Shown: piece by piece, positions 1,445-22,507 of the stretch | Position numbering within the stretch: the first letter of the stretch is position 1 | Layout of the letters: each line of letters starts with the position of its first letter | NCBI RefSeq assembly: GCF_002723935.1 | Contig: NZ_BEWM01000004.1 | Span: 372,001 to 436,000, forward strand | Direction of reading: 5' to 3' | Origin: Gluconobacter cerinus | Lineage (GTDB): Bacteria; Pseudomonadota; Alphaproteobacteria; Acetobacterales; Acetobacteraceae | DNA length: 64,000 bases | Made by a program: the position numbers and the translations under genes | The notes under the pieces: model-generated | Seen by the model: the letters and a program-made list of their open reading frames with translations, nothing else | Told to the model about the DNA's origin: nothing | The model's database searches: none

Positions 1445-1555
1445 GAAAACTACCTTTACTAGCTTTAGGGTTCAAGACGGCATATCTGCCGAAGAAATTG
1501 GCAAGGGCCTCACGAGGCACCAGAGAGCCTGCTGCCTGTGGTACCTCGGCTTTAC

Positions 1556-2440: not shown

Positions 2441-2471
2441 AGCAACACTCCAAGGCGAACAAGACATAAAA

Positions 2472-2559
2472 CTATATTATGTAGTTGTACTTATATTTTT
2501 CACTTGAGTCATGACGTACAAAAAAGTGTATATTGTCAATACAACGATATAATATCGTT
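2472..2559. promoter_or_regulatory. Divergent operator pair between LysR and monooxygenase genes
   Basis: Two copies of one 17-mer face away from each other in this intergenic region. On the minus strand (2472-2488) it reads ACAACTACATAATATAG, and on the plus strand (2541-2557) ACAACGATATAATATCG, identical at 14 of 17 positions. The plus copy overlaps a perfect inverted repeat, AACGATAT-A-ATATCGTT (2543-2559), just before the AAGGAGG ribosome site of the monooxygenase. This is seen in the sequence. That it binds the LysR protein, or is a paired promoter element, is inference. Confidence 0.55.
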
Positions 2560-2578
2560 TTTTTAAGGAGGCTGTGTC

Positions 2579-3685: not shown

Positions 3686-4525
3686 ATGAAATTATTTCAG
3701 TGTTGGAAAATGATTATGACTACCAAATCACAAAATATTAGAAGCGCTGAAAATGGCTTCAGGAAAAAAACTTTCCATTTGCAACCTCGGATGCCCGCAC
3801 AAACTTTTGAAGAAGAACGTCTTCATCGAAAACAGCGGTTGGCCGCAACATTTCGATTATTCAGTCGATATGGATTTGATCAAGGCCTGGCTGGCCATGT
3901 TACCGCGCGAGATCCAGAATTTCCGGATCGATACTGGATCAACCCTCTCGCTGTCCATTTTTCGCAAATCCGGGTTTCGGATCTTCAATTGGTAGACCAC
4001 GACGGCAATATCCTGATTGGACAGCGACCTATCAACACGGCTGGATTCACTATTCATTCTGCGCTTCATCGTGCCAGACCGGACATCATTGCGGCCGCCC
4101 ACACCCATTCGACATACGGGAAGGCCTTTTCAGCCTTAGGAACCGAGCTTCTTCCGATTACTCAGGATGCCTGCTCGTTTTATGAAGATCATGCAATCTT
4201 CAATCCCTTCAGCGGGGTCGTGCTGGATGACAAGGAAGGCGATCGCCTTGCGCGAACTCTGGGCAGCAAAAAAGCCCTCATACTGCAAAACCACGGCCTT
4301 CTGACCGCAGGACCTACCGTGGAAGCCGTAGCCTGGTGGTTTTTAGCCATGGATAACGCTGCACACACACAGCTTTTGGCACAGGCTGCTGGCCCTCTAA
4401 AACTCATCGCACCAGACATTGCAAAACTGACTGGCGGGCAGGTGGGGAGCGCAGAAGGCGCCTATTACTCGTTTCAGCCCCTGTGGGACTGGATTGTGGC
4501 CCTTGAGCCTGACCTTTTTGACTGA
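3686..4525 (+). CDS. Class II aldolase/adducin-domain protein
   Basis: A zinc-dependent class II aldolase-fold protein (L-fuculose-phosphate aldolase/adducin head family). Conserved metal-site motifs are visible: IHSALHRARPDIIAAAHTHSTYGKAFS with the two metal-binding histidines near residues 135-137, the acidic/histidine segment FYEDHAIF, and LILQNHGLLTAGPTVEAVAWWF with the third histidine. The first ATG abuts the upstream stop codon; in-frame ATGs at 3710 and 3716 are also possible, and no clear ribosome site distinguishes them, so the N-terminal 10 residues are uncertain. Such proteins without a kinase partner often act on non-phosphorylated acids or on products of organosulfur or C-C cleavage. 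Its place behind the monooxygenase suggests processing of the desulfonated product, but the substrate is unknown. Confidence 0.88.
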   Translation: MKLFQCWKMIMTTKSQNIRSAENGFRKKTFHLQPRMPAQTFEEERLHRKQRLAATFRLFSRYGFDQGLAGHVTARDPEFPDRYWINPLAVHFSQIRVSDLQLVDHDGNILIGQRPINTAGFTIHSALHRARPDIIAAAHTHSTYGKAFSALGTELLPITQDACSFYEDHAIFNPFSGVVLDDKEGDRLARTLGSKKALILQNHGLLTAGPTVEAVAWWFLAMDNAAHTQLLAQAAGPLKLIAPDIAKLTGGQVGSAEGAYYSFQPLWDWIVALEPDLFD

Positions 4526-4544
4526 CCCGACGATCCCAACGAGC

Positions 4545-5717
4545 CTAGTTTTGTTTTTTCAGTGCTTCGCGGCCAGCCGCTAGAAGAGCGCTATCTCCCT
4601 GAGGCGTATGAATTCGCCCACACAAAACGTTCCGATAGTGGCGTTCCAAAGGATTATCTTGGCTTAGACCAGGATTTCCAATGGCTGCCACCGCCTTGCC
4701 CACGGCAAGGATGGCGTTCTCAGTGACTGAGTGCTTGGTTAAACCCGCCAGTATGGTGACTTCAGTGCCTTGCTCTTGGAGCTGAAGGGCTTGATCGATG
4801 AGCCCGGCATTAGAAAGGAGCAGTGCGTCGATTTCGCCAAGAAGAACCTCGAACCGCGGCAAAGTCGCTAGAGACGCCCCCAGATTGGACGGGACGCGCT
4901 GGTGCAGGAAGTTAATCAGCCAATTACGGGCCGCCACAGCAATACCATTATACAGCGAAGCAATAACAATGGCATGCCAACTGGCAATGGCTACAGTAGG
5001 GCGCCCCTCATTTGACGCAGACGCTGAGAGCAGACCAAGGTATCGCTCTGGAATTTCTACATTATCAAAGATAATCGTATGGCTTCCGGTCGCGCGCATA
5101 CCCATCTGGTGCCAGCTTTTCTCAATGCGGACACCTCGAAGGTCCAGCGGAACCAAGACAGGACCAACCTTGGGGTCAGTCTCGTCCGTTTTGGCCCAGA
5201 CAATTCCCCATTGCAGGGCAGTCGAGCCTGTTGAGAAGATTTTGCGGCCGCTGATGCACCAGGCTTGTCCGCGCTGACTGACAGTCGTAGCTGGCAAACC
5301 GCCTCTGGCAGGCGTTCCTAACTCCGGCTCTACACGCAGAGCATTGATGAGCGCCCCCTCCTGAAGGACGCTCTCGAACAACTCCTGTTTGACCTCTTCT
5401 GACCACTCGGACGAATGAGCAAAAGCTGCAGTTTGAAGATACTGCATTGCCAGAATAAGGGCAGTTGACGGATCTCCTTGCGCTATCTGTCCGACAATCC
5501 TGACTATCGCGCTCAGTGAAATATCTTGGCCGCCTGCGCTTCTGGGAAGAGCGAGCGATAAAAAACCTGCATCTTGAAGATCCTGAAGGTTCTCGAGGGA
5601 AATGCTACCACTCCGGTCATACCGCGCAGCCCGCTCTTCGAACAATGGAATGAGCTTTTTGAGAACCTCGTCCATGCCCTCTGGGAGGCAGTGCTCTAAA
5701 AATGGCTTGTCACCCAT
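4545..5717 (-). CDS. Acyl-CoA dehydrogenase-fold flavoenzyme (SfnB/DszC-like)
   Basis: A 390-residue acyl-CoA-dehydrogenase-fold protein: helical N-terminal domain, central beta domain (ISGRKIFSTGSTALQWGIVWAKT, then WHQMGMRATGSHTIIFDNVEIPERYL), and a C-terminal helical domain ending PLERHYRNVLCGRIHTPQGDS. This C-terminal pattern is typical of the branch that includes SfnB and DszC-like sulfur monooxygenases rather than beta-oxidation enzymes. ATG 5717 has GGAGATC just upstream. It converges with the aldolase gene (19 bases apart) and is divergent from the ABC permease. With a flavin reductase, an SsuD-like enzyme and a sulfonate-type transporter nearby, a role in sulfur scavenging is likely. 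Whether it is a dehydrogenase or an oxygenase cannot be told from sequence. Confidence 0.82.
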   Translation of the reverse strand: MGDKPFLEHCLPEGMDEVLKKLIPLFEERAARYDRSGSISLENLQDLQDAGFLSLALPRSAGGQDISLSAIVRIVGQIAQGDPSTALILAMQYLQTAAFAHSSEWSEEVKQELFESVLQEGALINALRVEPELGTPARGGLPATTVSQRGQAWCISGRKIFSTGSTALQWGIVWAKTDETDPKVGPVLVPLDLRGVRIEKSWHQMGMRATGSHTIIFDNVEIPERYLGLLSASASNEGRPTVAIASWHAIVIASLYNGIAVAARNWLINFLHQRVPSNLGASLATLPRFEVLLGEIDALLLSNAGLIDQALQLQEQGTEVTILAGLTKHSVTENAILAVGKAVAAIGNPGLSQDNPLERHYRNVLCGRIHTPQGDSALLAAGREALKKQN

Positions 5718-5970
5718 GGGGGATCTCCGATCTCAGTCTGGCCGAGATTACAACATCTTTGACGGGGCGCGGAAACCAAGGGCTGAAAATATCCCGCACA
5801 ACACACGCTCTTCTCTCTGGATTAAAAAGCTGCACACGCCAGTGTGTCGGGCAGGAAAGGTCGAGAGACGATCGTCAAGTCCTGTAAAACTCTCACATTT
5901 AGAATATTCATCTGACATCTCCGCGCAGAGTTGAAACAATCATTGCTTCTTTCGGTTGTGGAGCAAGCCA

Positions 5971-6810
5971 ATGTCAGACACCGTCGTCTTGACCGAGACG
6001 CAAAGCGCCACCGAAGTTCCAAAAGGGCCATTGTCGTTTGTAAACCTCGCGTCTTTGCGGAGATACGCGTCCCCCGTTTTTTTGGTCTGCTGCTGGCAAG
6101 CAGCGTGCTCCTCAGGTTTCTTGTCAACGCGACTTGTCTCATCTCCTGCGCAGATAGCTGTCACAGGATGGGCGCTCACCCGTGACGGAACGTTGCCATA
6201 TAATCTTGGTGTCTCCCTTCTGCGGGCTGCAAGTGGGTTAGGACTAGCTCTCACCTTAGGCGTCTTACTGGCTCTTATCTCAGGCCTGTCCAAAGCAGGT
6301 GAAGACATTGTAGATGCACCCCTACAGATATTACGTACCCTTCCTGCGCTGGCGCTGGTTCCATTATTCATCCTGTGGTTCGGAATTGGCGAAACACCTA
6401 AAATTCTGCTCGTCGCGCTAGGCGCCATATTTCCGATCTATCTAAATCTTCACAGTGGAATTCGCTCCATTGACCCTAAACTTCTGGAGATGGGGTCCAC
6501 ACTAGGCCTGTCGCGCTGGCAGACAATCAGGGACATTTTTCTACCGGGAGCGCTACCAGATTTCCTTACAGGCTTGCGGTACGCCGTAGGGGTTTCCTGG
6601 ATGATGCTTGTGGTTGCAGAGCAGGTGAATGCCGAAAGCGGGATTGGCCATATGATGATGGATGCACAGGACTTCATGCGCACAGACATCATTCTGGTCG
6701 GGCTTCTCGTCTACGGGGTCCTCGGTCTGCTGTCAGATCAAATTATCCGCTTTCTGGAAGCCATATTTCTGGCCTGGCGCCCCAGCAATGAAAAGAAGCG
6801 CACGACATGA
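5971..6810 (+). CDS. ABC transporter permease, SsuC/TauC-like
   Basis: An inner-membrane permease with about six hydrophobic segments and the cytoplasmic coupling motif of binding-protein-dependent importers: EMGSTLGLSRWQTIRDIFLPGALP, near residues 175-198. A TAISP-like N-terminal segment (VTGWALTRDGTLPYNLGVSLLRAASGLGLALTLG, outlined) is typical of the nitrate/sulfonate/taurine permease family. ATG 5971 is preferred to the upstream in-frame TTG at 5956 because GGAG (5960-5963) is ideally placed. It overlaps the ATPase gene by ATGA at 6807. There is no periplasmic binding protein gene in this cluster, which is unusual because this class of importer normally needs one. Confidence 0.9.
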   Translation: MSDTVVLTETQSATEVPKGPLSFVNLASLRRYASPVFLVCCWQAACSSGFLSTRLVSSPAQIAVTGWALTRDGTLPYNLGVSLLRAASGLGLALTLGVLLALISGLSKAGEDIVDAPLQILRTLPALALVPLFILWFGIGETPKILLVALGAIFPIYLNLHSGIRSIDPKLLEMGSTLGLSRWQTIRDIFLPGALPDFLTGLRYAVGVSWMMLVVAEQVNAESGIGHMMMDAQDFMRTDIILVGLLVYGVLGLLSDQIIRFLEAIFLAWRPSNEKKRTT

Positions 6811-7532
6811 CTGCTTTGAAAGCTGCTCCACAAGATGCAGCAGTTAGCATCCAACAACTGACAAAACGCTTCGACGGCGGCTCTCCCGTGTTGGATAGGC
6901 TCAATCTGGCCATAGCTCCAGGCGAATTCGTAGCATTGCTCGGACATAGTGGCTCAGGAAAATCAACTCTCCTGAGAACACTTGCAGGACTAGATCCAGT
7001 GACAGAGGGCATTGTGACCAGACCACAACGCGTTTCGGTCGTTTTCCAGGAATCCCGGCTGCTGCCTTGGAAAAAGGTCTGGAAAAATATTGTTCTAGGC
7101 CAAGAAGACGCGGGTACCAGACAGCGTGCCGAAGTCGTTTTGGAAGAAGTGGGGCTGTCACATCGAACCAATGCATGGCCTGCGACCCTTTCCGGTGGTG
7201 AAGCGCAGCGGGCTGCCCTGGCCAGGGCACTTGTGCGGGAACCTGCCTTTCTCATGCTGGATGAACCCTTTGCGGCCCTTGACGCACTCACACGCCTGAA
7301 AATGCAGCAATTGGTCGCCGACCTCTGGAAGAAACATGGCTGCGCTGTTTTTCTTGTCACACATGACGTGGATGAGGCGCTGTTACTTGCAGATCGAGCC
7401 GTTGTGCTCGAACAGGGGCAAATCCGGGTCGATCTTCCAATTCCTCTTTCACGGCCGAGAAAACACTCCGATGGTGATTTGGAGGCTCTCCGGACAACCT
7501 TGCTCAATGCGCTGGGGGTTCATGGCGCATGA
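6807..7532 (+). CDS. ABC transporter ATP-binding protein, SsuB/TauB-like
   Basis: The cytoplasmic ATPase of the importer, 241 residues. Walker A is GHSGSGKST at residues 46-54. The Q-loop is in VFQESRLLPWKKVWKN, a signature of the nitrate/sulfonate/taurine group. The ABC signature is LSGGEAQR, Walker B is FLMLDEPFAALD, and the switch histidine is in VTHDVDEAL. It starts inside the permease stop codon (ATGA, 6807-6810) and its own end overlaps the nitroreductase start in the same way, so permease, ATPase and nitroreductase are translationally coupled. Substrate class is inferred from family resemblance and neighbours. Confidence 0.93.
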   Translation: MTALKAAPQDAAVSIQQLTKRFDGGSPVLDRLNLAIAPGEFVALLGHSGSGKSTLLRTLAGLDPVTEGIVTRPQRVSVVFQESRLLPWKKVWKNIVLGQEDAGTRQRAEVVLEEVGLSHRTNAWPATLSGGEAQRAALARALVREPAFLMLDEPFAALDALTRLKMQQLVADLWKKHGCAVFLVTHDVDEALLLADRAVVLEQGQIRVDLPIPLSRPRKHSDGDLEALRTTLLNALGVHGA

Positions 7533-8173
7533 GCATTTCTTCTAAAAAGGCTATATATATGACGACCGCTCCTGAGCGCACCGCTCATTCTTCTGTCGAA
7601 CCGCTCATCCTTAATCGCTGGTCTCCAAGGTCTTTTAGTCCGGTAGATATTGATCCTCAGGATCTTCTGGCCTTTCTCGATGCGGGACGGTGGGCACCTT
7701 CAGCGTATAATAGCCAGCCGTGGCGTTTCATTTATACTCGGCGCAACATGCCAGAATGGAACCGTTTTCTATCGTGGTTAATCCCGTTTAACCGCTCATG
7801 GGCAGAAAACGCATCGGCTATCGTGTTTGTCGCATCCAGAACGATTACCATCTCAAGTCGAACTGGCGAGCCATCTCCTCTGACGACGCACGCATTCGAT
7901 GCTGGTGCGGCTTCTGTCCTTGTCCAGTTACAAGCATCTCAAGCAGGGTGGGCCGTTCATCCTATCAGTGGCTTTGATCATGATCTCGCCCATGCAGGCT
8001 TGGAATTACCGGAAGACTATCAGCTTCATGCAGCATTGGTCATTGGAAAGCAGGCGAATGGGGAGAACCTCTCAGATGAACTGCGGAAACGTGAGCAGCC
8101 CTCCAGCCGGGTCAGTCTTAAAGAATTGGCGTTTAAAGGGCGTTTCAACGCGTCGGAAAAATCTGAAGACTGA
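7529..8173 (+). CDS. Nitroreductase family protein
   Basis: A 214-residue FMN-binding nitroreductase-fold oxidoreductase. Seen are the N-terminal flavin-binding segment NRWSPRSFSP and RWAPSAYNSQPWRFIY near residues 48-65, and the central HAFDAGAASVLVQLQASQAGW helix that lines the active site. The last gene of the ABC-transporter operon, it overlaps the ATPase gene by four bases at 7529. A second in-frame ATG at 7559 with AAGG eight bases before it is an alternative start. In this setting it may supply reduced flavin to the cluster's monooxygenases or reduce an activated sulfur substrate; the specific role is unknown. It ends 410 bases before the next gene. Confidence 0.87.
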   Translation: MSISSKKAIYMTTAPERTAHSSVEPLILNRWSPRSFSPVDIDPQDLLAFLDAGRWAPSAYNSQPWRFIYTRRNMPEWNRFLSWLIPFNRSWAENASAIVFVASRTITISSRTGEPSPLTTHAFDAGAASVLVQLQASQAGWAVHPISGFDHDLAHAGLELPEDYQLHAALVIGKQANGENLSDELRKREQPSSRVSLKELAFKGRFNASEKSED

Positions 8174-8242
8174 TCAAGTTGGATTACCTCTCGCGAGCGG
8201 TATTTCTCTAGTAAGCCGCATCATTCTCTTATAGTTTAAAAA

Positions 8243-8283
8243 ATAATTATACCTTTCTATATTAATTAGAAAAGTATAATTAT
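8243..8283. repeat. AT-rich inverted repeat, 17-bp arms
   Basis: Left arm ATAATTATACCTTTCTA (8243-8259) pairs with right arm TAGAAAAGTATAATTAT (8267-8283) with one mismatch, around a 7-base loop. There is no T-run after it on the plus strand. On the minus strand the right-hand flank gives TTTTTTAAA. It may be a terminator, a cruciform or a regulator site. Confidence 0.55.
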
Positions 8284-8520
8284 ACATACCATACCGATAA
8301 TAATTTATTCAATAAAAATAAATATGGATAGTTATGGAGATTTACTTCCATTGTTTATTTTATATAATTGGTAATTTTAACATAAATTACTTTATTAAAC
8401 TACTTTATCAGCCCAATAAATTTTTCTTTTGAGGTTTTCCTGAAAATATATTCCCTCTTATGTCAAAAAAATTCAGTACCAAGGAGCCAAAGGCAGAATC
8501 GGTTTACAATCGTAATTAAT

Positions 8521-8541
8521 AGGTATTAGAAAGGTATTATT
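8521..8541 (+). promoter_or_regulatory. Tandem GGTATT operator-like motif before TonB receptor
   Basis: The motif is AGGTATT, five spacer bases, GGTATTATT, ending 42 bases before the receptor ATG. The same motif occurs at 11076-11096, ending 38 bases before the symporter ATG, with identity at all 16 non-spacer positions. The simplest reading is a binding site for the GntR/UTRA regulator encoded downstream; this is inferred from position and repetition only. Confidence 0.55.
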
Positions 8542-8583: not shown

Positions 8584-10950
8584 ATGCGTTATCGTAAGGT
8601 TCTTATGCTGGGGGTAGGGTGTGCCGTTTGGGCAACCGCTTCCGTAGAGGCAAAATCTACGTCGCAGGCTGCATCCGAAAATAAAAAAGAAAAATCCATT
8701 TCCGCTTCGGGTGACGCTGAAGAAGTAAAGGTCACGGCGAAAAATGCTCCCGATGGAGCGAGCGGGCATTCGGCAGGAGCGGGTATGATGCCTGTTCAGA
8801 CTGTACCCAAGGCCCGGAGCGCCTTTACTCGAGACTTTATTGCGCATCAGCCGCCGACGCAGAATACCGCATCCATGATTGCCAGCATGCCGGGTGTGGC
8901 CGTTGGGCGAAATGATCCACTCGGACTTGATGATCAACGCATCAACCTTACGGTTCGAGGGATGGCACAAACTGAAATTGGCTATCTGATGGACGGAATT
9001 CCTGCTGCGGACCCGTCGAATTACAAGCTTTACACAACGCAGAACGTAGATAACGAAAACCTGGCTCGCGTAGACCTGACGCAAGGCTCAGCTTCACCTA
9101 CATCTCCCCTGTATAATGCTGTCGGTGGTGAACTGACACAGACCTTACGAACGCCTTCAGATCATGCTGGCGGCTATGCAGACTTCAGCGGCGGCTCCTA
9201 CAGCCTGGACCGTGAATTTTTCCGGATAGATACCGGAGAAATCGGGCATACCGGCATCCGATCCTATGCATCTTTTTCCCATACGCATGCAGAAGACTGG
9301 CGTGGTCCGGGCTACACAACCCGCTACCATATGGACAACAAGACCGTAAAAGAGTGGGGACATAGCGGGGCGGAACTATTGGTTTCATACAACACCACGA
9401 CCAGTTTCTATCCGCGCTTCCCAACACTGACTCAGTGGAAGCAGTACGGTACCAATTTTAACTGGGAAAAGGATTATATCCCAGGCAGCGCCAATTATTA
9501 TCGTTTCCAGCAGAACGTCCGAAACGCCATTACGATCGGCGCTCCCATGCATTTTGACTTGGGACATCAACTGACTGCCCACTTGACTCCGTATTACATG
9601 CATTCCGATGGGTATGGAGACGTCGGTAGCAGTCTGAGCAACACTGGCAGCTATTATGGAAACATTCCAGCGGGGAACCTGAACGTATCCCCATCTTATA
9701 ACGGTTCTTTCCCCGTTTCGATTACGGACACGTTCAAAGAAAACAATGCTGGGCTCAACGCCTCGTTGTCATGGAAACATGGTCACAATACTCTAACGGT
9801 CGGGTACTGGTACGCATATTTTGCGCAGCCCGAAGCTGCAACATATGCTGCGGCAGATGCGAACGGTAGTATCGCCAGCATGTCTGGAAAATACCCGGTT
9901 GTTTCTGCGTCGGGTAATGTGCTGCACAGTTACAATATTAACTTCATGCAGCAGACAAATACGGCGTACATTGTCGATGAATATAGTGCGTTGAATGACC
10001 GCTTAAAGCTTTCTGCCGCATTCAAAGAAAGCATGATTACGAGGCAGCTTACTCAAATCATGCCTGGCCTACCGTCATACAGAAACGGCAACAGCGATGC
10101 CGTGCCGCTTCCTCAAGTGATGGCAAGTTATCAGATCACACCGAATGACCAAATTTTCGTTAACGGAACAACGGGCTTTGCCGAACCTGCTGGGTGGCCG
10201 AGCTACGCTGATTTTATCAGCGTCGCCACCGGCAAACAGACGCGTGGCCATGCACAAAATCTAAAGCCGGAATACGCAATTTCTGAAGAGCTGGGATATC
10301 GCCATCATGGCTTCGTAAACGTCAATATTGCCCTATTTAATTACAATTTTACGAACCGTCAGGTTTCTACGACAGAGGTCGTAGGCGGAACGAGAGTGAG
10401 TTCGTCGATCAATGGCGGTGGACAAACATCTCGCGGAGCAACTATTGAACTGGGATTGAAGCCTTGGCATCATTTCAGCCCCTACATCTCAGGCCAGTAT
10501 ATCCACGCGACGATCGATAATAACTTGAGAGCGTCCAGCGGTGACTATCTGAGAACTAAGGGAAAACTGGCTGTTAATACACCGGAATTCACAGCATCCG
10601 TCGGAATTTTGTATGACAATGGCAGCGCATTTGGCGGTCTTTTGTTCAACTATGTTGGAAGTCAATACTCCACATTCATGAACGATGAGAAGATGCCAGC
10701 ATACGAAACTCTGAATATGAATTTAGGCTACAGATTTCAGTCTGTTGGTTTCCTGCATCGCCCACAAATTCAGCTGAATTTGGTTAATCTTGGGCTTGGT
10801 AACAAGGGTTACCTCTCTTCGACGTATTCTGTTGCAACGAACGCTCATGCCACGACGGGCGTGTATGGCACAGCGATCGCCGCCAGCGCACCAACTTACA
10901 ACGTCGCAGGCGGATTTGCAGGAATTGTCTCGGTCTCCTCTGGATTTTGA
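8584..10950 (+). CDS. TonB-dependent outer-membrane receptor, probable muropeptide/amino-sugar uptake
   Basis: A 788-residue outer-membrane active transporter. It has a signal peptide (MRYRKVLMLGVGCAVWATASVEA), a TonB-box-like EEVKVTAKN around residues 46-54, a plug domain with IASMPGVAVGRND, NLTVRGMAQTEIGYLMDGIP and LARVDLTQGSASP, and a long beta-barrel region ending in an aromatic residue (SSGF). ATG 8584 sits behind GGGAGAGAG. Iron-siderophore receptor hallmarks and a Fur box are absent. Instead it leads a run of genes for N-acetylmuramic acid metabolism and shares an operator-like motif with the symporter gene. Import of peptidoglycan fragments into the periplasm is therefore the favoured role. 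TonB receptor identity is firm; the substrate is inferred. Confidence 0.9.
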   Translation: MRYRKVLMLGVGCAVWATASVEAKSTSQAASENKKEKSISASGDAEEVKVTAKNAPDGASGHSAGAGMMPVQTVPKARSAFTRDFIAHQPPTQNTASMIASMPGVAVGRNDPLGLDDQRINLTVRGMAQTEIGYLMDGIPAADPSNYKLYTTQNVDNENLARVDLTQGSASPTSPLYNAVGGELTQTLRTPSDHAGGYADFSGGSYSLDREFFRIDTGEIGHTGIRSYASFSHTHAEDWRGPGYTTRYHMDNKTVKEWGHSGAELLVSYNTTTSFYPRFPTLTQWKQYGTNFNWEKDYIPGSANYYRFQQNVRNAITIGAPMHFDLGHQLTAHLTPYYMHSDGYGDVGSSLSNTGSYYGNIPAGNLNVSPSYNGSFPVSITDTFKENNAGLNASLSWKHGHNTLTVGYWYAYFAQPEAATYAAADANGSIASMSGKYPVVSASGNVLHSYNINFMQQTNTAYIVDEYSALNDRLKLSAAFKESMITRQLTQIMPGLPSYRNGNSDAVPLPQVMASYQITPNDQIFVNGTTGFAEPAGWPSYADFISVATGKQTRGHAQNLKPEYAISEELGYRHHGFVNVNIALFNYNFTNRQVSTTEVVGGTRVSSSINGGGQTSRGATIELGLKPWHHFSPYISGQYIHATIDNNLRASSGDYLRTKGKLAVNTPEFTASVGILYDNGSAFGGLLFNYVGSQYSTFMNDEKMPAYETLNMNLGYRFQSVGFLHRPQIQLNLVNLGLGNKGYLSSTYSVATNAHATTGVYGTAIAASAPTYNVAGGFAGIVSVSSGF

Positions 10951-11075
10951 GATACGCGAAAAAATGAGCGCTCTGGAAATGTTCAAGACTATCCCAAGCG
11001 CTCATCGATCGCATGGGTAATTTCAAACAGAGATCTAATTTCCATATCTGAGGCAAAAGGCAGGAACGAGTTATC

Positions 11076-11096
11076 AGGTATTTTTTTGGTATTATT
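11076..11096 (+). promoter_or_regulatory. Tandem GGTATT operator-like motif before symporter operon
   Basis: AGGTATT, five T spacer bases, GGTATTATT, 38 bases before the preferred symporter start at 11135. It matches the site at 8521-8541 except in the spacer, and marks the symporter-murQ-gntR-hydrolase-kinase run as a second transcription unit under the same control. Confidence 0.55.
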
Positions 11097-11134
11097 AAGG
11101 TTCTATGGCAGTTGAGGTCTACGAGGAAACATTC

Positions 11135-12658
11135 ATGCAGTTTGCCGATATTGCTGTAATCTGTGCTTATTTCATTGCACTGCCTGTCCTGGCGATCACG
11201 CTTTCACGCCGAAAGAACTCATCCGGAGATTTTCTCTCAGCCGCTCATGACCTGCCGTGGTGGGCGATCTGCCTGTCTTTGGTCGCCACCGAGACCTCAA
11301 CCCTGACATTCATCAGTATTCCAGGAGTAAGTTATGGAAGCGGTATGGTGTTCCTGGGGCTCGCGGCAGGATATTTTATTGGCCGTTTGATCGTGACCAT
11401 ATGGTTTTTGCCGCTGTATGCACAAGGCCGCATGACAAGTGCATACCAGTATCTGGGTCATCGCTTCGGTGCTGGATTGCAGCAAGCAGCGTCAGTCGCA
11501 TTTCTGATAACGCGACTGCTTGCGGAAGGCGTTCGTTTATCGGCAGGGCTTATCCCACTCATGTGGATGCTTGATCATGAAGGGATCAGCATAAACCGCG
11601 CCTTAGTCATGGGCATCATTATGGTATTTACACTGACTTATACGATGATGGGTGGTCTTCGCGCGGTCGTGTGGTCTGATACTATTCAGCTGTGCATTTA
11701 TCTTTTTGGCGCAGTCATCTGTGCTGTACTGCTGAATAACGAGATCTCTCCTGAAGGTTGGTCCAGTGCGTGGAGATCAGGGCATCTGGCACCTTTCCAT
11801 CATATGACTATGGGCAACCTGGTGTCTGATCCCTTTACGCTTTTAGCCGCGTTAGTCGGAGGGGCTATTCTCTCAGTTGCCTCTCACGGAACTGACCAAC
11901 TCATGGTTCAGCGCCTTCTGGCTGCACGTAGCTTGAGAGATGCGCGCTTTGCACTAATGGGAAGTGCTTTTGTTATCGCGTTTTTGTTTGGGATCCTGTC
12001 CCTAATCGGCGTGCAACTCTGGATACGCAATGGAGGCACCTCTCTCACGTCTCTGGGGCTGAATTCTCCTGACGACCTTTTCCCAACTTTTATTGTTTCA
12101 GGGCTGCCAGCAGGCTTAGGCGGGTTGCTTCTAGCCGGTGTATTAAGCGCGACTATGGGTTCGCTATCATCTACACTTAACGCAATGGCGAGTGCTGTTT
12201 TAACAGATTTTGGGCCTTTACCGGCACGTGCCCTTCAGACGTGCCAAACACGCTTAAATTTAGGGCAGGGTAAGCTGTTCGCACCTCGGGTCCTAACGTT
12301 GGTGTGCAGCCTTGCCCTTTTGTTGACTGCGCTGTGGTTCACAGGAAGCCGACAATCAGCGGTCATTCTGGGCTTAACAGTCGCAGGATGGTCTTATGGG
12401 CCAACACTAGGCACGTTCCTGTTTGGAATGCTGTATCCATCAGCATGCTTGAAAGATGCGTTAACGGGATTTTCTGTTTCTCTGGCAGGCATGGCCGTAA
12501 TGATGGGGGCATTACAGTATTATAGCTGGCACGTGGCTTTTCCCTGGTTAGTGCCGTTAGGAATTACCTTGATGGTCATATCGGGATCTATTTCAATAAT
12601 GTTCACAAAAGGCGGGCTCCAACACTTTCCGTCTGCCCCCGACACTTCAAAGGACTGA
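11135..12658 (+). CDS. Sodium:solute symporter (SSS family), probable amino-sugar importer
   Basis: An inner-membrane carrier of about 507 residues with roughly 13 hydrophobic segments. SSS-family motifs are visible: FLSAAHDLPWWAICLSLVATETSTLTFISIPG, outlined, in TM2; the G-R-L-I-V-T-I-WFLPLY segment; TYTMMGGLRAVVWSDTIQ after TM5; and LLAGVLSATMGSLSSTLNAMASAV near residues 335-360, where the sodium site lies. ATG 11135 is preferred over 11105 because GAGG (11123-11126) is suitably spaced. The gene is followed 5 bases later by murQ. Unlike the PTS transporter MurP, this class delivers unphosphorylated sugar, which explains the kinase gene downstream. Substrate is inferred from the operon. Confidence 0.87.
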   Translation: MQFADIAVICAYFIALPVLAITLSRRKNSSGDFLSAAHDLPWWAICLSLVATETSTLTFISIPGVSYGSGMVFLGLAAGYFIGRLIVTIWFLPLYAQGRMTSAYQYLGHRFGAGLQQAASVAFLITRLLAEGVRLSAGLIPLMWMLDHEGISINRALVMGIIMVFTLTYTMMGGLRAVVWSDTIQLCIYLFGAVICAVLLNNEISPEGWSSAWRSGHLAPFHHMTMGNLVSDPFTLLAALVGGAILSVASHGTDQLMVQRLLAARSLRDARFALMGSAFVIAFLFGILSLIGVQLWIRNGGTSLTSLGLNSPDDLFPTFIVSGLPAGLGGLLLAGVLSATMGSLSSTLNAMASAVLTDFGPLPARALQTCQTRLNLGQGKLFAPRVLTLVCSLALLLTALWFTGSRQSAVILGLTVAGWSYGPTLGTFLFGMLYPSACLKDALTGFSVSLAGMAVMMGALQYYSWHVAFPWLVPLGITLMVISGSISIMFTKGGLQHFPSAPDTSKD

Positions 12659-12663
12659 CAATC

Positions 12664-13593
12664 ATGGCCATCAAGGACCCCAATAACCTTTCAAAGGTTT
12701 CTTCTGGCACGGAATCTCAGGACCCCCGTTATGTCGACGTTGACCTTTGGCCGGCTACCTCCATTCTGGACGCACTTGCGGAAGCCCAGATGTCCGCAAC
12801 AGCAGTTGTTAAAACGTCAGTCCCGCAAATTGCAAAAATCGTCGCTGCGGCGCTTCCTCGGCTACAGGCAGGAGGGCGCCTTTTTTACGTGGGTGCCGGT
12901 ACATCTGGGCGTGTCGGGCTTCAGGACGGTGTAGAACTTACACCTACGTTTGGGTGGGAGCCTGAGCGTCTGGTTCTCATGCTGGCCGGAGGTACCAAAG
13001 CGCTTTTCGAAGCTGTCGAAGGAGCGGAAGACCGCGAGGATACGGCTCGTGCCGAGATATTGTCTCACACTCCAGGGCCGAATGATGTTGTCCTCGGGAT
13101 CGCAGCAAGTGGTGCAACCCCCTACACGTGTGCCGCGATTGCAACTGCCAGAGAAATGGGCTCGCTGACTGTCGGCATAAGCTCCAATCCGGCCGGCCGA
13201 CTTCTCAGTGAGGCAGAGATGGGTCTCAGTATCGTCACGGGTCCTGAAGTTATTGCCGGGTCAACGCGTTTGAAGGCAGGGACGGCACAAAAAGCGGCTC
13301 TAAATCTTCTGTCCACTACGCTCATGATTCAGATGGGTCATTGCTACCGGGGGCAGATGGTGGACATGCGCGTCGTCAATGCAAAACTGGAAAGACGAGC
13401 AGCACAGATGGTGCACTTGTTAGCGGGCGGAACTCCCGCGGAAATCGCTGATGCACTTGCAGTGAGTGGTCAAAACGTCAAGCGAGCCGTGCTCGTTCGG
13501 TCCGGCATGACAATTGACGACGCCGAAAGTGCTCTTGTTGCCCACGAAGGTAATTTGCGCGCCGCTCTTACGTCCCGCCAGGAACACGAGTAA
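12664..13593 (+). CDS. murQ: N-acetylmuramic acid 6-phosphate etherase
   Basis: MurQ cleaves the lactyl ether of N-acetylmuramic acid 6-phosphate, giving N-acetylglucosamine 6-phosphate and D-lactate in the cytoplasm. The 309-residue protein has the sugar-isomerase (SIS) fold. GAGTSGR lies at residues 77-83, followed by LQDGVELTPTFG with Glu91 at the position of the catalytic Glu of characterised MurQ. IAASGATPYT marks the phosphate loop, then come GPEVIAGSTRLKAGTAQK and VDMRVVNAKL. The length is usual. ATG 12664 follows AAGGA, five bases after the symporter gene and six before the regulator gene, so the three are one operon. It needs phosphorylated MurNAc, which the kinase at the operon end could provide. 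Confidence 0.95.
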   Translation: MAIKDPNNLSKVSSGTESQDPRYVDVDLWPATSILDALAEAQMSATAVVKTSVPQIAKIVAAALPRLQAGGRLFYVGAGTSGRVGLQDGVELTPTFGWEPERLVLMLAGGTKALFEAVEGAEDREDTARAEILSHTPGPNDVVLGIAASGATPYTCAAIATAREMGSLTVGISSNPAGRLLSEAEMGLSIVTGPEVIAGSTRLKAGTAQKAALNLLSTTLMIQMGHCYRGQMVDMRVVNAKLERRAAQMVHLLAGGTPAEIADALAVSGQNVKRAVLVRSGMTIDDAESALVAHEGNLRAALTSRQEHE

Positions 13594-13598
13594 TTTTC

Positions 13599-14363
13599 AT
13601 GCACGTGATAAGTTCGCAAAAGCTGTTCGCTGCCCTGACGCCTGATCCCGCAGACCGCAAGCCTCTCTACTTGCAACTTGCTGAGCAACTAAGGGAATTG
13701 ATTGAGAGTGGAGCCCTTAAGGGTGGAGATGCTGTTCCTCCAGAGCGGGAAATTGCAGAGTTCACCGGTGTTTCACGAGTGACAGTCCGCAAATCGTTAG
13801 AGCAGTTGGTAAATGCGGGACTTCTAACTCAACGCCCAGGTGCTGGAACCTTTGTCACCCGACGCATCCAGCAGCCCCTGTCTGCCTTGATGGGCTTTTC
13901 CGAAGATATGCGGGCGAGGGGCTATGAACCCGGCTCAATCTGGCTAGGCAAGCGCATGGCTGGGGCCAGCCCGGACGAAGCAATGGCAATGGGTATGGCC
14001 CCGGGCGCACCCGTGCTTCGCCTCAAGCGGATCAGAACCGCAGATGGGGAACCTCTGGCCATTGAGACCGCCGTTATTTCTCGCAGGGATCTGGCATCTC
14101 CCGAGTTAGTCAAAGATTCATTTTATGAGGCGTTGAAAGAGCGAGGCCTGTTGCCAGTCAGAGCGCTTCAGCGCATTCGTGCCAGAATGGCGACTACTCA
14201 AGAGGCGGAGCTCCTCCACCTTGTGCAGCCGAGTGCCATTCTTGAAATTGAACGAAGATCTTTTTTGGCAGATGGACGAATACTTGAGGTGACATTCTCA
14301 TGCTATCGCGCCGATCTCTATGACTTTGTCGTGGAACTCCGAACATCCGCAGAGCGTGGCTGA
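13599..14363 (+). CDS. GntR-family regulator with UTRA domain
   Basis: A 254-residue HutC-type GntR regulator. The winged helix-turn-helix covers about residues 20-87 (LYLQLAEQLRELIESGAL, PPEREIAEFTGVSRVTVRKS, LLTQRPGAGTFVTR), followed by a UTRA ligand domain with GFSEDMRARGYEPGS and the RIRTADGEPLAIETAVI strand. Relatives such as NagR/DasR sense amino-sugar phosphates. It lies between murQ and the serine hydrolase in the operon. It is the obvious candidate to bind the repeated GGTATT motif found before the receptor and symporter genes. Its ligand, possibly GlcNAc-6-P or MurNAc-6-P, is inference. Confidence 0.92.
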   Translation: MHVISSQKLFAALTPDPADRKPLYLQLAEQLRELIESGALKGGDAVPPEREIAEFTGVSRVTVRKSLEQLVNAGLLTQRPGAGTFVTRRIQQPLSALMGFSEDMRARGYEPGSIWLGKRMAGASPDEAMAMGMAPGAPVLRLKRIRTADGEPLAIETAVISRRDLASPELVKDSFYEALKERGLLPVRALQRIRARMATTQEAELLHLVQPSAILEIERRSFLADGRILEVTFSCYRADLYDFVVELRTSAERG

Positions 14364-14393
14364 CCGTGTGGTCTTTCAGGAGATAAAAGCAGG

Positions 14394-15590
14394 ATGACAA
14401 GTCCCAATCCCTCATCGTCCAAACGTAACCTGACGGTTACAAGTCGGCGCATTTTTCTGACGGGCACCGCAACATTGGTCTGTGGCGGTCTGTCTGCTTG
14501 TGCTCAATCTTCAGACGACAGGTTCTTGCGAGTAGATACCTTAGCGCAGCGAGCAGTCCGGAAGGGGGAGGTACCGGGGATTGTTCTTGCAGTCGGGCAT
14601 CAGGGACAGATTGTACATCGTTACGTTTGCGGCAACCGAGCATTGGTTCCGAACCGGGAAGCGATGACCTGGGATACGCGCTTTGATATGGCTTCTCAGA
14701 CCAAGCCTACCATGACAGCGTTGTCTATTATGCAACTTGTCGAGAGGGGGCAGGTGGGTCTGGACGAACCTGTCAGCCGTTATTTACCCGCCTTTGCCGC
14801 GAATGGAAAAGCGCCTGTCACAATACGCCTGCTCCTGACCCACTATTCCGGCTTGCCCCCGGACCTCTCTTTGGACGATGCGTGGTATGGCAAAGCCGAA
14901 GCCGTTCGTCGTGCGATGACTTCTTCGCTGGCCAATCCCCCAGCCGAAAAATTTGTTTACAGTGATATCAACTTCATCACGCTGGGACTTGTGGTCGAGA
15001 AAGTCAGCGGGCTTTCTCTGAACACATACGTTCAAAAAGAAATTCTGGGTCCTTTGAGGATGACGGAATCCGGCTATCTGCCTGATCCATCACTCAAAAT
15101 GATCATCGCTCCAACACAATATGATGAACACGGCATGATGCTTCGTGGCGTGGTACACGACCCGACTGCGCGCCGTATGGGCGGAGTGGCCGGGCATGCA
15201 GGTCTCTTCTCAGACGCTCATGACATGTGCCTGTACGCACAAGCATTGCTGGATCGGATTGCGGGCAGGCCAAGTGCATTTCCACTCCGCCGCGAAACTC
15301 TGCAACAGATGATCTCCCCACAACAACCACAAGGAAAAACAGAACTTCGTGGCTTTGGATGGGATAACACGACCCATTACTCCTCGCCCAGAGGCAGCTC
15401 TTTCTCTGACACTTCCTTCGGCCACACAGGTTTCACTGGAACGTCGCTTTGGATCGACCCGGCCAGTGATTCATACGTCTTAATCTTAACCAACAGGGTT
15501 CACCCGAATGGGAGAGGGAATGTCTCTCAACTTCGATACGATATTGTCACGGAAGCCGCGCATGCACTCGGTCTCTACAACAGGGCCTAA
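14394..15590 (+). CDS. Tat-exported lipoprotein serine hydrolase, beta-lactamase/AmiE-EstB fold
   Basis: A 398-residue serine hydrolase of the class C beta-lactamase/penicillin-binding fold. The N-terminus carries twin arginines (residues 18-19) before a hydrophobic stretch and a lipobox LSAC with Cys36, so export by Tat and lipid anchoring are likely. The active-site motifs are SQTK (Ser101-Lys104), YSD (189-191) and HTG (344-346) within FGHTGFTGTS. The same fold occurs in Bacillus AmiE, an N-acetylmuramoyl-L-alanine amidase encoded in the murQRP-amiE-nagZ operon. The location here beside murQ suggests it strips the stem peptide from MurNAc-peptides in the periplasm before symport. An esterase or beta-lactamase activity cannot be excluded. 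Confidence 0.87.
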   Translation: MTSPNPSSSKRNLTVTSRRIFLTGTATLVCGGLSACAQSSDDRFLRVDTLAQRAVRKGEVPGIVLAVGHQGQIVHRYVCGNRALVPNREAMTWDTRFDMASQTKPTMTALSIMQLVERGQVGLDEPVSRYLPAFAANGKAPVTIRLLLTHYSGLPPDLSLDDAWYGKAEAVRRAMTSSLANPPAEKFVYSDINFITLGLVVEKVSGLSLNTYVQKEILGPLRMTESGYLPDPSLKMIIAPTQYDEHGMMLRGVVHDPTARRMGGVAGHAGLFSDAHDMCLYAQALLDRIAGRPSAFPLRRETLQQMISPQQPQGKTELRGFGWDNTTHYSSPRGSSFSDTSFGHTGFTGTSLWIDPASDSYVLILTNRVHPNGRGNVSQLRYDIVTEAAHALGLYNRA

Positions 15591-15646
15591 AGCATACAAT
15601 GAGCACTGAAACGACTGCTGCACGACATGTCTGATTGGATTGATCC

Positions 15647-16603
15647 GTGACCTGTTCCAGCATCGCGGCAATAGATGGCGGGGGCACCAAAACACTGCTT
15701 GTCGTTCTCCACCGAGACGGCACTCTAGGCCCTGTTATAAGAGCCCCTGGCTCCAACCCATTCGATCAAGTCGACTGGCAGTCCATCCTGATATCCTTGA
15801 TGTCCCGTCTTCCCTCAACCACGAAAGCCCTATCTCTTGGGCTCGCGGGCTACGGAGAGATGCGGCCATCCGGCCGAAAACAGAAAGACGTCGTAGCGGC
15901 AAATTTCCCGCATATTTTCAATATTACCAACGACGTGGATATTGCCTGTACCGGAGCATTTGCCGGGCATGGCGGCCTTCTTCTGCTGGCAGGAACAGGC
16001 TCTGTCGCGTGGGTCGTTAATGGCAAAGGCGAACAAGACCGTGTTGGCGGATGGGGAAGTCTGTTTGGCGATGAAGGCAGTGCGTTCTGGATTGGTCGAC
16101 AGGCTCTGTCATTACTGGCGATGCTGTTAGATGGCCGCAATCAAAAAGATTGGGCATTCCTCGAACCGTTTGCTGACGTTCTCGGGTTATCTTCTAAAGC
16201 GAATTCTTATGATGCTGGGCTAATGGAATGGTACAGCCGCCTCGAAAATCCTCGTGCATCAGTGGCATCGCTGGCAAAAACGGTTTCAGATCTAGCTGAG
16301 CAGGGCATTGTGCCAGCTCAGCGTATAATGGTTGAAGCCGCAGCTCTTTTGGGAGCACACATCACTGCTGCGAGACGCAAATTTCCCGATACATCTCTCC
16401 CCTGGAGCTACGCTGGTGGAGCTCTCCAAAGTCGTCTCCTTCGAGAGACACTAGCCGCTCATCACGGTGCGCCCCTGGTGCCCCGTCTGCCACCGGTGGG
16501 CGGAGCTTTGCTCAACGCCGCTCAAATGGCCGGATGGAATCCCGATGAACGCTGGATCTGTAAAACAGCTGCAACCTTACGGTTAGCGGGCATCAGTTCA
16601 TGA
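15647..16603 (+). CDS. BadF/BadG-type N-acetylhexosamine kinase (NagK/MurK-like)
   Basis: A 318-residue ASKHA-fold sugar kinase. The phosphate-1 motif is DGGGTKT at residues 10-16. LSLGLAGYGE, GLLLLAGTGSVAWVV and GGWGSLFGDEGSAFWIGRQAL are the hallmarks of GlcNAc kinases, and YAGGAL is the adenosine motif. The start is GTG 15647; upstream ATGs are out of frame or closed. Related Clostridium MurK phosphorylates both MurNAc and GlcNAc at position 6. Placed last in an operon with MurQ and a non-PTS transporter, it is the missing step that makes MurNAc-6-phosphate. Whether it uses MurNAc, GlcNAc or both is inferred. There is no AnmK here. Confidence 0.87.
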   Translation: MTCSSIAAIDGGGTKTLLVVLHRDGTLGPVIRAPGSNPFDQVDWQSILISLMSRLPSTTKALSLGLAGYGEMRPSGRKQKDVVAANFPHIFNITNDVDIACTGAFAGHGGLLLLAGTGSVAWVVNGKGEQDRVGGWGSLFGDEGSAFWIGRQALSLLAMLLDGRNQKDWAFLEPFADVLGLSSKANSYDAGLMEWYSRLENPRASVASLAKTVSDLAEQGIVPAQRIMVEAAALLGAHITAARRKFPDTSLPWSYAGGALQSRLLRETLAAHHGAPLVPRLPPVGGALLNAAQMAGWNPDERWICKTAATLRLAGISS

Positions 16604-20536: not shown

Positions 20537-22507
20537 TTACCAGACAGTCGGCATTGTCTGCCCCGTCTGGAGAAGAACCAGCCCGCTCGGATTGCCTGGG
20601 TATGGAACGACCAGGCGCCATGTGAAAGGACTGCATGTGATCATCGAAATCAGAAGTCTCCGCGGATAACCGGGCGCTCCTATCCATTCAAGGCTGTCGG
20701 CTTTGGCGTAGACATTTTCCATGCTCGCAGCGGCATCCTGCACGGGACGACTGGTCATTAGACCTGCGATCTCCAACTTCATTTCGGCAAGAACCTTACC
20801 GTGGCTGACCATCACGATCCCACCTTTGAGCTCGGCGATACGATTGACTGCGAGCGCCATTGCCTCGTCGCTGGTTCCCATGACCGTGATATTGTGGAGA
20901 TCGTGGGAGACGGACGTAGCGATGGCACTATCGAGCGTTTTAGGGCCATTACCCGTCCAGAACATCTTGCCCAGCCGAGCCTGTCCCATGTACCGATCTA
21001 CTGTTGAAACTTTGATGATATCATGTGCGACATCGCGCTGAACGACCCCGTTCACCACAGAGAGCATTGCTGTTTTCTGAACGGGGTCAGTGTAAAATGG
21101 GGCCTGAATAGCAGCCGTAACCTGGGTTGTTTTTCCCTTGGGTGCCAGGATCTCAAAGTCTTTTGCAGTCAGTTTTCTACCGATATGAATCGTATCGGAT
21201 GCCCATGTCGGCCATGTAATTTTGGGCACTGGAAGCAAGTATTTCCCATCCTGGGCCGCCAGCTTTCCGTTCGCAAAAACATACTTGATCTTCACGTCCG
21301 GCACAGAAGATAGCAAGACAACGTCAGCATACCGACCCGGTGTAATAGACCCGACAATCTGATCCAGATGACCATGCTGGGCCGGATAAAGGCTACCCAT
21401 TGCGTATGACGCCTCAATGGGCGCACCCATCTTGATTGCAAGACGGATGTGATAATCCATTGTTCCTTGCTTCAGCGTATCCGCGACATTCCTGTCGTCT
21501 GTTACAAGCGCAATATTATTCCAGTTTTTCAGCCCTTTACGCACAAAGTAAGGGACGGCCCGCTCAATATTGTCATCACGGAGCTGTAAAAAGAGGCCAT
21601 GTTGCAACTTGTTCCATGCCTCTTCAGGTAGCCGGGTTTCATGGTCGCTGGAGAGACCCGCTCCGGCAAACGCATTGATCGTGTCCATGTCCCATAATCC
21701 TGCACCGTGCCCATCGACGACGCCCCGATTATCGAATGTGGCCTGAATGTTTTCCCAGATCCGTTGGTGACCAGGGTGAGAAGGGTTTGAAACGGCAGGC
21801 CAGTCCATCACTTCGTCCAACCCCTGGACGCGCGGATTATCGCGAATATTTTCAGAGATTTCCTTGTAGGCATAGTTTCCGCCACCTTGCTCGAAGGCAG
21901 AAGGCGGGGTGGCTGACCCGAGAGCAGGGAAAATTTTCAACGGACTGCCAAGGTGTTCTGCCGTCAGCCAGAATTCAACGTTATGCGTACCACTGACATT
22001 CGCAAACTCATGAGAGCCTTCCGTGGTCCAGGTATTTCCCAGTGGGATGACAAGGGCCGCTTCCCACTCGGGCGAGAGCATTGAACTCTCAATATGCTTA
22101 TGAGATTCCCCGAAACCGGGGACAGCCGGGAGCCCCTTGGCATCAAAGGTTGAAAGCGCCTGACCTTTCCACGCCCCAACAGGCCCTACCCAGGCAATCC
22201 GTCGCCCTGCAATGACGATGTCCTGTCCATCCTCCCAACTCAGGGTGTAGACGTTCAGAACCTTTGCATTGTGGATCAGAAGGTCAGCTGGGGCATGACC
22301 CAGGGCGACCGCGACCAACAACTGACGTGTTTTAACTTCATCACTGAAGGCAACGGGGTGCGCCACCCGACTTGCTGTGGGAACCGGAGAAGCTGCCGTT
22401 TCACCAGCGACGGCATATGATGATGTCAGAGAGATACATGACAGCGAACAGGCCAGCGTCTTTGCTGAAAAATTCGAGAACTTTCGGAAAGACAACGGAA
22501 AAAACAT
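20537..22507 (-). CDS. Exported adenine deaminase-like amidohydrolase
   Basis: A 656-residue amidohydrolase of the adenine deaminase (Ade) family, which converts adenine to hypoxanthine and ammonia at a metal centre. The metal motif HxH is present as ESHKHIESSML (family form DAHxHIESS); GSHEFANVSG, VDGHGAGLWDMDTINAFAGAGLSSDHE (outlined) and LVTDDRN follow. Usual Ade is about 570-590 residues and cytoplasmic. This one has an extra N-terminus with a basic region, a hydrophobic core and an AVA/GE cleavage-like site near residues 35-37, so it appears to be exported. The usual TDDRHP is TDDRNV, and the C-terminus diverges. Catalysis may be altered. It is coupled to the HupE-like gene. Confidence 0.83.
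   Translation of the reverse strand: MFFPLSFRKFSNFSAKTLACSLSCISLTSSYAVAGETAASPVPTASRVAHPVAFSDEVKTRQLLVAVALGHAPADLLIHNAKVLNVYTLSWEDGQDIVIAGRRIAWVGPVGAWKGQALSTFDAKGLPAVPGFGESHKHIESSMLSPEWEAALVIPLGNTWTTEGSHEFANVSGTHNVEFWLTAEHLGSPLKIFPALGSATPPSAFEQGGGNYAYKEISENIRDNPRVQGLDEVMDWPAVSNPSHPGHQRIWENIQATFDNRGVVDGHGAGLWDMDTINAFAGAGLSSDHETRLPEEAWNKLQHGLFLQLRDDNIERAVPYFVRKGLKNWNNIALVTDDRNVADTLKQGTMDYHIRLAIKMGAPIEASYAMGSLYPAQHGHLDQIVGSITPGRYADVVLLSSVPDVKIKYVFANGKLAAQDGKYLLPVPKITWPTWASDTIHIGRKLTAKDFEILAPKGKTTQVTAAIQAPFYTDPVQKTAMLSVVNGVVQRDVAHDIIKVSTVDRYMGQARLGKMFWTGNGPKTLDSAIATSVSHDLHNITVMGTSDEAMALAVNRIAELKGGIVMVSHGKVLAEMKLEIAGLMTSRPVQDAAASMENVYAKADSLEWIGAPGYPRRLLISMITCSPFTWRLVVPYPGNPSGLVLLQTGQTMPTVW

Follow-up and report, generated by a model that had tools for sequence, protein, structure and literature searches.

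The murTKQ system of Tannerella forsythia combines import independent of the phosphotransferase system (PTS), a kinase of the BadF family (MurK), and the etherase MurQ (PMC5790795, PMC5388701, PMC7670621, and PMC10465942). MurT is assigned there to the sodium symporter superfamily (PMC5790795), so PTS-free import of N-acetylmuramic acid (MurNAc) together with a BadF kinase is not new. We analyzed a six-gene locus of Gluconobacter cerinus, located at positions 8584–16603 of a 64,000-nucleotide stretch (the window), which is part of a 465-kb contig (C4) in a 3.58-Mb genome. Compared with murTKQ, the Gluconobacter locus adds a symporter of the PF00474 family, a TonB-dependent receptor, and a GntR regulator, while its kinase lacks the specificity residues of MurK. 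Comparative sequence analysis suggests that this locus serves the uptake and catabolism of muramic-acid sugars as a regulon under GntR control, with a conserved symporter-murQ core and an exchangeable kinase, a reading to which we assign a probability of about 0.68.

In Escherichia coli and Bacillus, with the gene orders murQP-yfeW and murQ-murR-murP-amiE, the neighbors of murQ likewise encode an importer and a hydrolase of the S12 family. A Metabacillus locus (L100) contains murQ, a PTS EIIBC gene, an S12 gene, and NamZ, an exo-N-acetylmuramidase that releases free MurNAc, in one stretch. The Gluconobacter locus differs from the E. coli and Bacillus systems in that its genome has no PTS EIIC, in carrying a GntR/UTRA regulator instead of MurR, which is of the RpiR type, and in the additional TonB receptor and BadF kinase.

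The nag clusters of Caulobacter also combine a TonB receptor with an inner-membrane amino-sugar importer and GntR-type regulators, and N-acetylglucosamine (GlcNAc) uptake there is TonB dependent; however, they employ PTS permeases, contain no MurQ, and direct MurNAc through the MurU route (PMC13046382). AmpG and YejBEF-YepA similarly provide inner-membrane entry of peptidoglycan fragments (PMC9790009), whereas the genus of the present strain has no AmpG over the cut-off, and the candidate here is a monosaccharide importer of the SSS family. In other bacteria, MurNAc use has been predicted from MurQ together with a GlcNAc pathway (PMC5507952). The first-pass annotation of this DNA had regarded the TonB and SSS roles as new, but symporter-superfamily import of MurNAc in Tannerella (PMC5790795) and TonB-dependent GlcNAc uptake in Caulobacter (PMC13046382) precede them. 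The present locus was not reported among the listed matches, partly accessible, of literature searches on MurQ or anmK with symporters, permeases, or TonB receptors (including PMC11658791), on peptidoglycan recycling in acetic acid bacteria, on AmpG in Acetobacteraceae, and on MurNAc with GntR in alphaproteobacteria, with subscription journals mostly outside their scope.

Six co-directional genes around murQ

As the first-pass annotation had described, the locus consists of six intact reading frames, all on the + strand, with intergenic gaps of 154, 5, 5, 30, and 56 bases:

8584–10950, +, TonB-dependent outer-membrane receptor, probable amino-sugar or muropeptide receptor (TonB plug PF07715, 48 bits)
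11105–12658, +, SSS symporter, probable importer of MurNAc or anhydroMurNAc (SSF PF00474, 94 bits)
12664–13593, +, MurQ, MurNAc-6-phosphate etherase of the window or "A" lineage (profile scores, solved-fold alignment, and tree)
13599–14363, +, GntR/UTRA (HutC-type) regulator, probable local repressor (GntR and UTRA domains)
14394–15590, +, lipoprotein serine hydrolase of the twin-arginine translocation (Tat) type, S12/beta-lactamase fold, YfeW/AmiE-like, possible muramyl-peptide trimming enzyme (PF00144, 219 bits)
15647–16603, +, BcrAD/BadFG-family amino-sugar kinase, for MurNAc and/or GlcNAc (PF01869, 74 bits)

The gaps of 5, 5, 30, and 56 bases suggest that the genes from the symporter through the kinase form one transcript, with the TonB gene 154 bases apart. 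Comparison with relatives suggests that the true start of the symporter is 11135 rather than 11105. The MurQ protein scores over the cut-offs of NF003915 (336.5 bits against 168) and NF009222 (285.3 against 255) and under that of TIGR00274 (265.5 against 302). Its residues 15–303 align with the solved structures 1nri and 4lzj, and the motifs DGVEL and EGAED retain both glutamates, which we take to be the catalytic residues of MurQ. The window MurQ is 92–94% identical to that of Gluconobacter sp. Gdi, to which this organism is closest. The closest NCBIfam relative of the hydrolase is PBP4B (PRK03642, 138 bits, under the cut-off of 385). By eye, its N-terminus shows what we take to be a twin-arginine motif and a lipobox with its cysteine (SRRIFLTG ... 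LSAC), and its PF00144 domain contains SQTK (SxxK) and YSD (Tyr-Ser-Asp); a Metabacillus homologue with 29% identity has SNTK and YSD, also read by eye. A search for relatives of the TonB receptor among solved structures returned none at an E value of 0.001.

In the proposed pathway, the TonB receptor would transfer a peptidoglycan fragment or amino sugar across the outer membrane, and the periplasmic S12 lipoprotein may trim its peptide, a role assigned solely from fold and neighborhood. The symporter, taking the role of MurP and AmpG, would then import the free sugar together with sodium. In the cytoplasm, the kinase would generate MurNAc-6-phosphate, which MurQ would convert to GlcNAc-6-phosphate and D-lactate, and GlcNAc-6-phosphate would be passed to NagA, encoded elsewhere in the genome. 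We infer every substrate, the direction of transport, and the site and effector of the regulator from sequence.

murQ neighborhoods and a putative operator

To compare the locus with its relatives, we surveyed 35 distinct loci with a window-type murQ and 20 Gluconobacter loci with a second type (B), the present genome being included among the latter. The loci were gathered with peptide patterns of the window MurQ and from 100 related genomes (its own included, as in all searches of relatives) and represent a subset of acetic acid bacteria; the genus grouping seems to include Neokomagataea. Each stretch extended about 10 kb on either side of murQ, or less at contig ends, and absences are weak in the several loci truncated there (e.g., L043, L054, L056, and L062). 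Three loci (L037, L039, and L044) were excluded because they share contigs with L054, L055, and L056. The murQ tree separates the two lineages, with support of 100/100 for the B type and 97/77 for the window-type clade (36 rows), the second value of which is under the usual 80.

The neighbors of the 35 window-type murQ genes include SSS in 31 loci, anmK in 24, GntR in 20, the S12 hydrolase in 19, NagB in 17, and TonB in 16, followed by NagA (8), BadF (7), NagP (6), and GH20 (5). The 20 second-type genes are accompanied by anmK in 15 cases and by SSS, TonB, or GntR in none. SSS-murQ is thus the conserved core of the window-type loci, and anmK is the usual kinase there. Kinase content divides into AnmK alone (23 loci), BadF alone (6), both (1), and neither (5). 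Each of 12 genomes tested, ten of which have no anmK in the surveyed stretch, yielded a single AnmK match. In the present genome, the only AnmK match (C2:311649–312710, 298 bits) lies beside the second murQ (murQ then anmK, C2:310766–312710, L034), a pair widespread in Gluconobacter, and the window locus on C4 has none. The expectation that receptor and symporter would be linked to murQ was therefore borne out, given the symporter in 31 loci, a related receptor in 16, and a putative operator in common (below). The proposal that AnmK is not needed was not, since AnmK occurs in 24 such loci and beside the second murQ of the same genome.

Co-occurrence of all six genes was confirmed only in part. 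All six families occur together, within a span no longer than about 20 kb, in three of the 35 loci (L060, L063, and L076, from two Novacetimonas and one genome titled Gluconacetobacter entanii), rearranged and with nag genes between them. Five of the six families occur in six more loci, including three Gluconacetobacter loci in which TonB alone is missing. Among the Gluconobacter loci examined, the full set was found in the present one only. The BadF proteins of the seven BadF-bearing loci form a separate branch, 34–40% identical to the window kinase, and this recurrence of the combination with separately derived kinases favors a functional tie. The window hydrolase and kinase are extra paralogues, with best matches of 71–72% and 67% identity in 99 related genomes, and their examined relatives sit in other loci. 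In the same genome, a second hydrolase copy lies at C4:140185 (71%), and a second kinase (53%) lies on C6 near NagP and NagA. In the sister strain Gdi (G023), an IS5-like transposase fragment (under the model cut-off) follows GntR near the contig end, and no closer copy of the window hydrolase or kinase was found in that genome.

More distant murQ loci show related arrangements. Among 20 Bacteroidales murQ loci, BadF is present in 13, and in one of them (L240, 3572–6821) a PF00474 symporter directly adjoins BadF-MurQ, which indicates that the SSS-BadF-MurQ neighborhood also occurs outside acetic acid bacteria. In 5 of these 20 loci, NamZ is found close to BadF and MurQ. In four of them (L228, L231, L234, and L236), NamZ and BadF-MurQ are separated by a gene for a protein of about 390 residues, which by gene order corresponds to MurT of Tannerella. 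This protein is HGSNAT-like by Pfam in L228 and has no Pfam hit in L234, whose N-terminal motif is also seen by eye in L231 and L236.

Analysis of upstream sequences revealed a direct repeat, GGTATT-N5-GGTATTA, in the window and in the loci of ten relatives. The operator form GGTATT-N5-GGTATTAT has only two perfect copies in the 64 kb, before the TonB gene and before the symporter gene:

8522–8540, +, putative operator copy 1, 0 mismatches, 43 bases upstream of the TonB gene
11077–11095, +, putative operator copy 2, 0 mismatches, before the symporter operon, with a weaker overlapping repeat at 11088–11106

With up to two mismatches, this 19-base form matches three times in the window against 0.14 expected, a number reached by 1 of 100 shuffles. 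Across the 35 loci, 45 operator-like sites were observed, compared with 2 to 8 in mononucleotide shuffles, and 38 of the 45 are near a cluster gene. Of the 20 GntR-bearing loci, 17 have such sites near the starts of SSS, TonB, Bla, MurQ, NagA, or GntR genes, compared with 2 of the 15 GntR-less loci. The pattern was discovered in the window and ten of the 35 loci; in the remaining 25, sites were found in 9 of 11 GntR-bearing and 1 of 14 GntR-less loci (Fisher p 0.0002, not corrected for kinship). Control stretches gave one site in the 20 second-type murQ loci, three in 19 nag loci, four in 21 distant murQ loci (all in one locus), and none in three other stretches. We infer that the GntR protein binds the GGTATT repeats and that the TonB gene belongs to its regulon.

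Another candidate, an operator of the DasR/NagR type (TGGTNTANACCA), was rejected, as its single window match at one mismatch (0.99 expected) lies at 4660, away from the locus. Palindromes with six-base arms were absent before the symporter gene, and two AT-rich ones, at 8274 and 8304, lie far upstream of the TonB gene. Promoter and terminator scans fell under the shuffle mean.

Proposed import without PTS EIIC or AmpG over the cut-off

The genome contains no match to PTS EIIC (PF02378), a model matched by 7 of 14 control genomes; it therefore has no MurP, which supports the proposed MurP-independent route. AmpG (TIGR00901) exceeds its cut-off in none of 26 genus genomes, compared with 25 of 34 family genomes outside the genus. 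The only AmpG match of the present genome reaches 81 bits against a cut-off of 350 and scores better as RhtX/FptX-like (154.8 bits, also under cut-off). This match, at C4:409800–410936 within the window gene at 37719–39002 (−), was rejected as AmpG, being RhtX/FptX-like and located beside a TonB-receptor-like gene. When window-type murQ is defined as a best match of at least 62% identity (14 genomes), it is found in 14 of the 35 family genomes that are AmpG-negative and in none of the 25 that are AmpG-positive (p 0.0001, without correction for kinship, and largely from one clade). With no AmpG over the cut-off in 26 genus genomes, the symporter route may replace AmpG in the genus.

The nearest solved structure to the symporter is 5nv9, which we take to be the sialic-acid symporter SiaT. 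In SiaT, Ser60, Thr63, and Arg135 bind the carboxylate (PMC5931594). Alignment revealed that the equivalents of SiaT Ser60, Thr63, Phe78, and Asp182 are conserved in all 27 SSS rows (25 distinct, as two loci are duplicates), and that the SSS protein differs from SiaT in having Glu for Thr58 and Tyr for Gln82. These residues fit a charged sugar other than sialic acid, without naming the substrate.

Kinase substrate and competing explanations

The best solved relative of the window BadF is 8zo3, labeled a MurNAc/GlcNAc kinase and presumably the Clostridium enzyme, with which it has an Asn-Asp motif in common. The window kinase has Trp-Gly-Ser and Asn where MurK has Ser133-Pro134-Leu135 and Thr94, an equivalence drawn through the 8zo3 alignment. 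These loops are not decisive for MurNAc specificity, as the nag-operon kinases have the same ones. In the NagK_SO3507 model, the window BadF scores 65 bits, far under the cut-off of 370, which the genome's own nag-operon kinase likewise misses, at 51.7. In three Gluconacetobacter loci that have no anmK (L067, L070, and L071), NamZ lies between BadF and SSS beside murQ, as identified by Pfam (PF07075/PF20732) in L067 at 7127–8365 and by profile in L070 and L071. In most relatives, the sugar would be anhydroMurNAc, AnmK being the locus kinase; here, where the locus has a nag-type BadF instead of AnmK, the substrate is more likely to be free MurNAc, either by itself or together with GlcNAc. We judge the evidence to tilt slightly toward MurNAc as a real substrate of the window BadF, while action on GlcNAc only is a substantial possibility somewhat short of even odds.

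Several observations weigh against the regulon reading. The linkage counts are drawn from related species, the operator pattern was originally read off the window and ten of the same loci, and 7 of the 45 operator-like sites fall away from the tested genes. The AmpG cut-off is strict, with 5 of 14 control genomes matching the model and 2 exceeding it. Thirteen AmpG-negative genus genomes carry only the second murQ type, near which none of the 20 loci has an SSS gene, so the symporter is not a universal AmpG substitute. Two further AmpG-negative genomes (G029 and G034) carry a more distant murQ, and six (G005, G009, G022, G038, G054, and G057) have no or only a marginal murQ match. In the symporter, SiaT Arg135 is replaced by Ala in all 27 rows, although an invariant Arg lies one turn earlier. 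The window kinase has Asn in place of Thr94 of the MurNAc-specific Tannerella MurK, a change that the authors of the MurK work expect to hinder MurNAc. Finally, the window BadF is nested among nag-operon (GlcNAc) kinases in a ten-row clade supported at 97/95, and one more nag-operon row branches just outside that clade (100/98).

This nesting, which undercuts the earlier designation of BadF as a MurNAc kinase, also supports the proposal that BadF is a second GlcNAc kinase. The locus would then handle both sugars of the disaccharide, with AnmK elsewhere feeding MurQ from anhydroMurNAc and BadF phosphorylating the GlcNAc half. Ten relatives of the window BadF, 61–67% identical, adjoin NagP in all ten stretches and lie near NagA in seven; the active-site loops are those of nag-operon kinases; AnmK exists in the genome; and BadF lies beside NagA or NagB in L060, L063, and L076. 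However, the genome already holds the nag-operon BadF on C6, the window kinase has the longest branch of its clade (0.34), and the MurNAc/GlcNAc label and shared Asn-Asp motif of 8zo3 point the other way, as does NamZ, which stands beside BadF in the three Gluconacetobacter loci and close to NagP-BadF in another genome of the genus (L188, 6338–7660), where that BadF belongs to the clade of the window kinase. We regard this proposal as plausible although not quite probable. In the stretch with the nag-type kinase of this genome (L035, 10212–12605), an SIS-type protein (GlmD-like, under cut-off) and a GatZ/AgaZ-like tagatose-bisphosphate aldolase subunit lie between the kinase and NagP.

The external scavenging claimed in the first-pass annotation is likewise only one possibility, since a genus with no AmpG over the cut-off may recycle its own wall. 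Under this explanation, the cell, having lost AmpG, would break wall sugars down to monosaccharides in the periplasm and take these up through the symporter; the genus-wide AmpG contrast (0/26 versus 25/34) is consistent with it, and anmK, which encodes the enzyme for lytic-transglycosylase products, is present in 24 of the 35 loci. By contrast, the presence of a TonB receptor gene with the same putative operator argues for external uptake, the NagA and NagB neighbors (8 and 17 loci) point to catabolism, and the second murQ-anmK pair of this genome has no SSS within about 10 kb, which together leave own-wall recycling a minority possibility. It is unlikely, in turn, that the symporter and receptor carry something else (a chito-oligosaccharide, sialic acid, or lactate, for example) and merely adjoin murQ. 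Homologues of the receptor, 43–46% identical, do lie near several Gluconobacter nag operons, SSS specificity is unreadable from sequence, and several SiaT binding residues differ; yet SSS is near 31 of 35 window-type murQ genes compared with 8 for nagA, and the charged residues that do not vary suggest a single, conserved substrate that itself carries a charge.

Three other regions of the window were observed in passing. Upstream of the locus, a cluster at 902–8173 with genes for a luciferase-like monooxygenase, an ABC permease and ATPase, an acyl-CoA dehydrogenase-like protein, and a nitroreductase looks like one for sulfonate or thioether use. The gene at 20540–22507 (−) encodes an adenine-deaminase-like protein with a C-terminal adenine deaminase domain, the final residues of which appear unusual by eye. 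The product of the gene at 42249–44669 (−) shows a weak AIDA-like repeat match and, in the latter half, a Hint_2 domain.

The regulon reading places muramic-acid sugars among the candidate substrates of the SSS family, a class not mentioned in a review of prokaryotic SSS transporters, whose main text contains none of the words "muramic," "MurNAc," "MurT," and "peptidoglycan" (PMC7918813). The proposed operator would provide a means to find further regulon members. More tentatively, and at somewhat less than even odds, acetic acid bacteria may have lost import by the MurP-type PTS and AmpG and evolved a further inner-membrane entry, in which an SSS sodium symporter takes up MurNAc or anhydroMurNAc supplied by its own TonB receptor, under a GntR repressor acting at GGTATT direct repeats, with the kinase swapped between lineages (AnmK for anhydroMurNAc and BadF for MurNAc) according to the wall fragment eaten. 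The locus thereby offers a testable answer to how bacteria with no recognizable AmpG or MurP may recover or eat peptidoglycan sugars.

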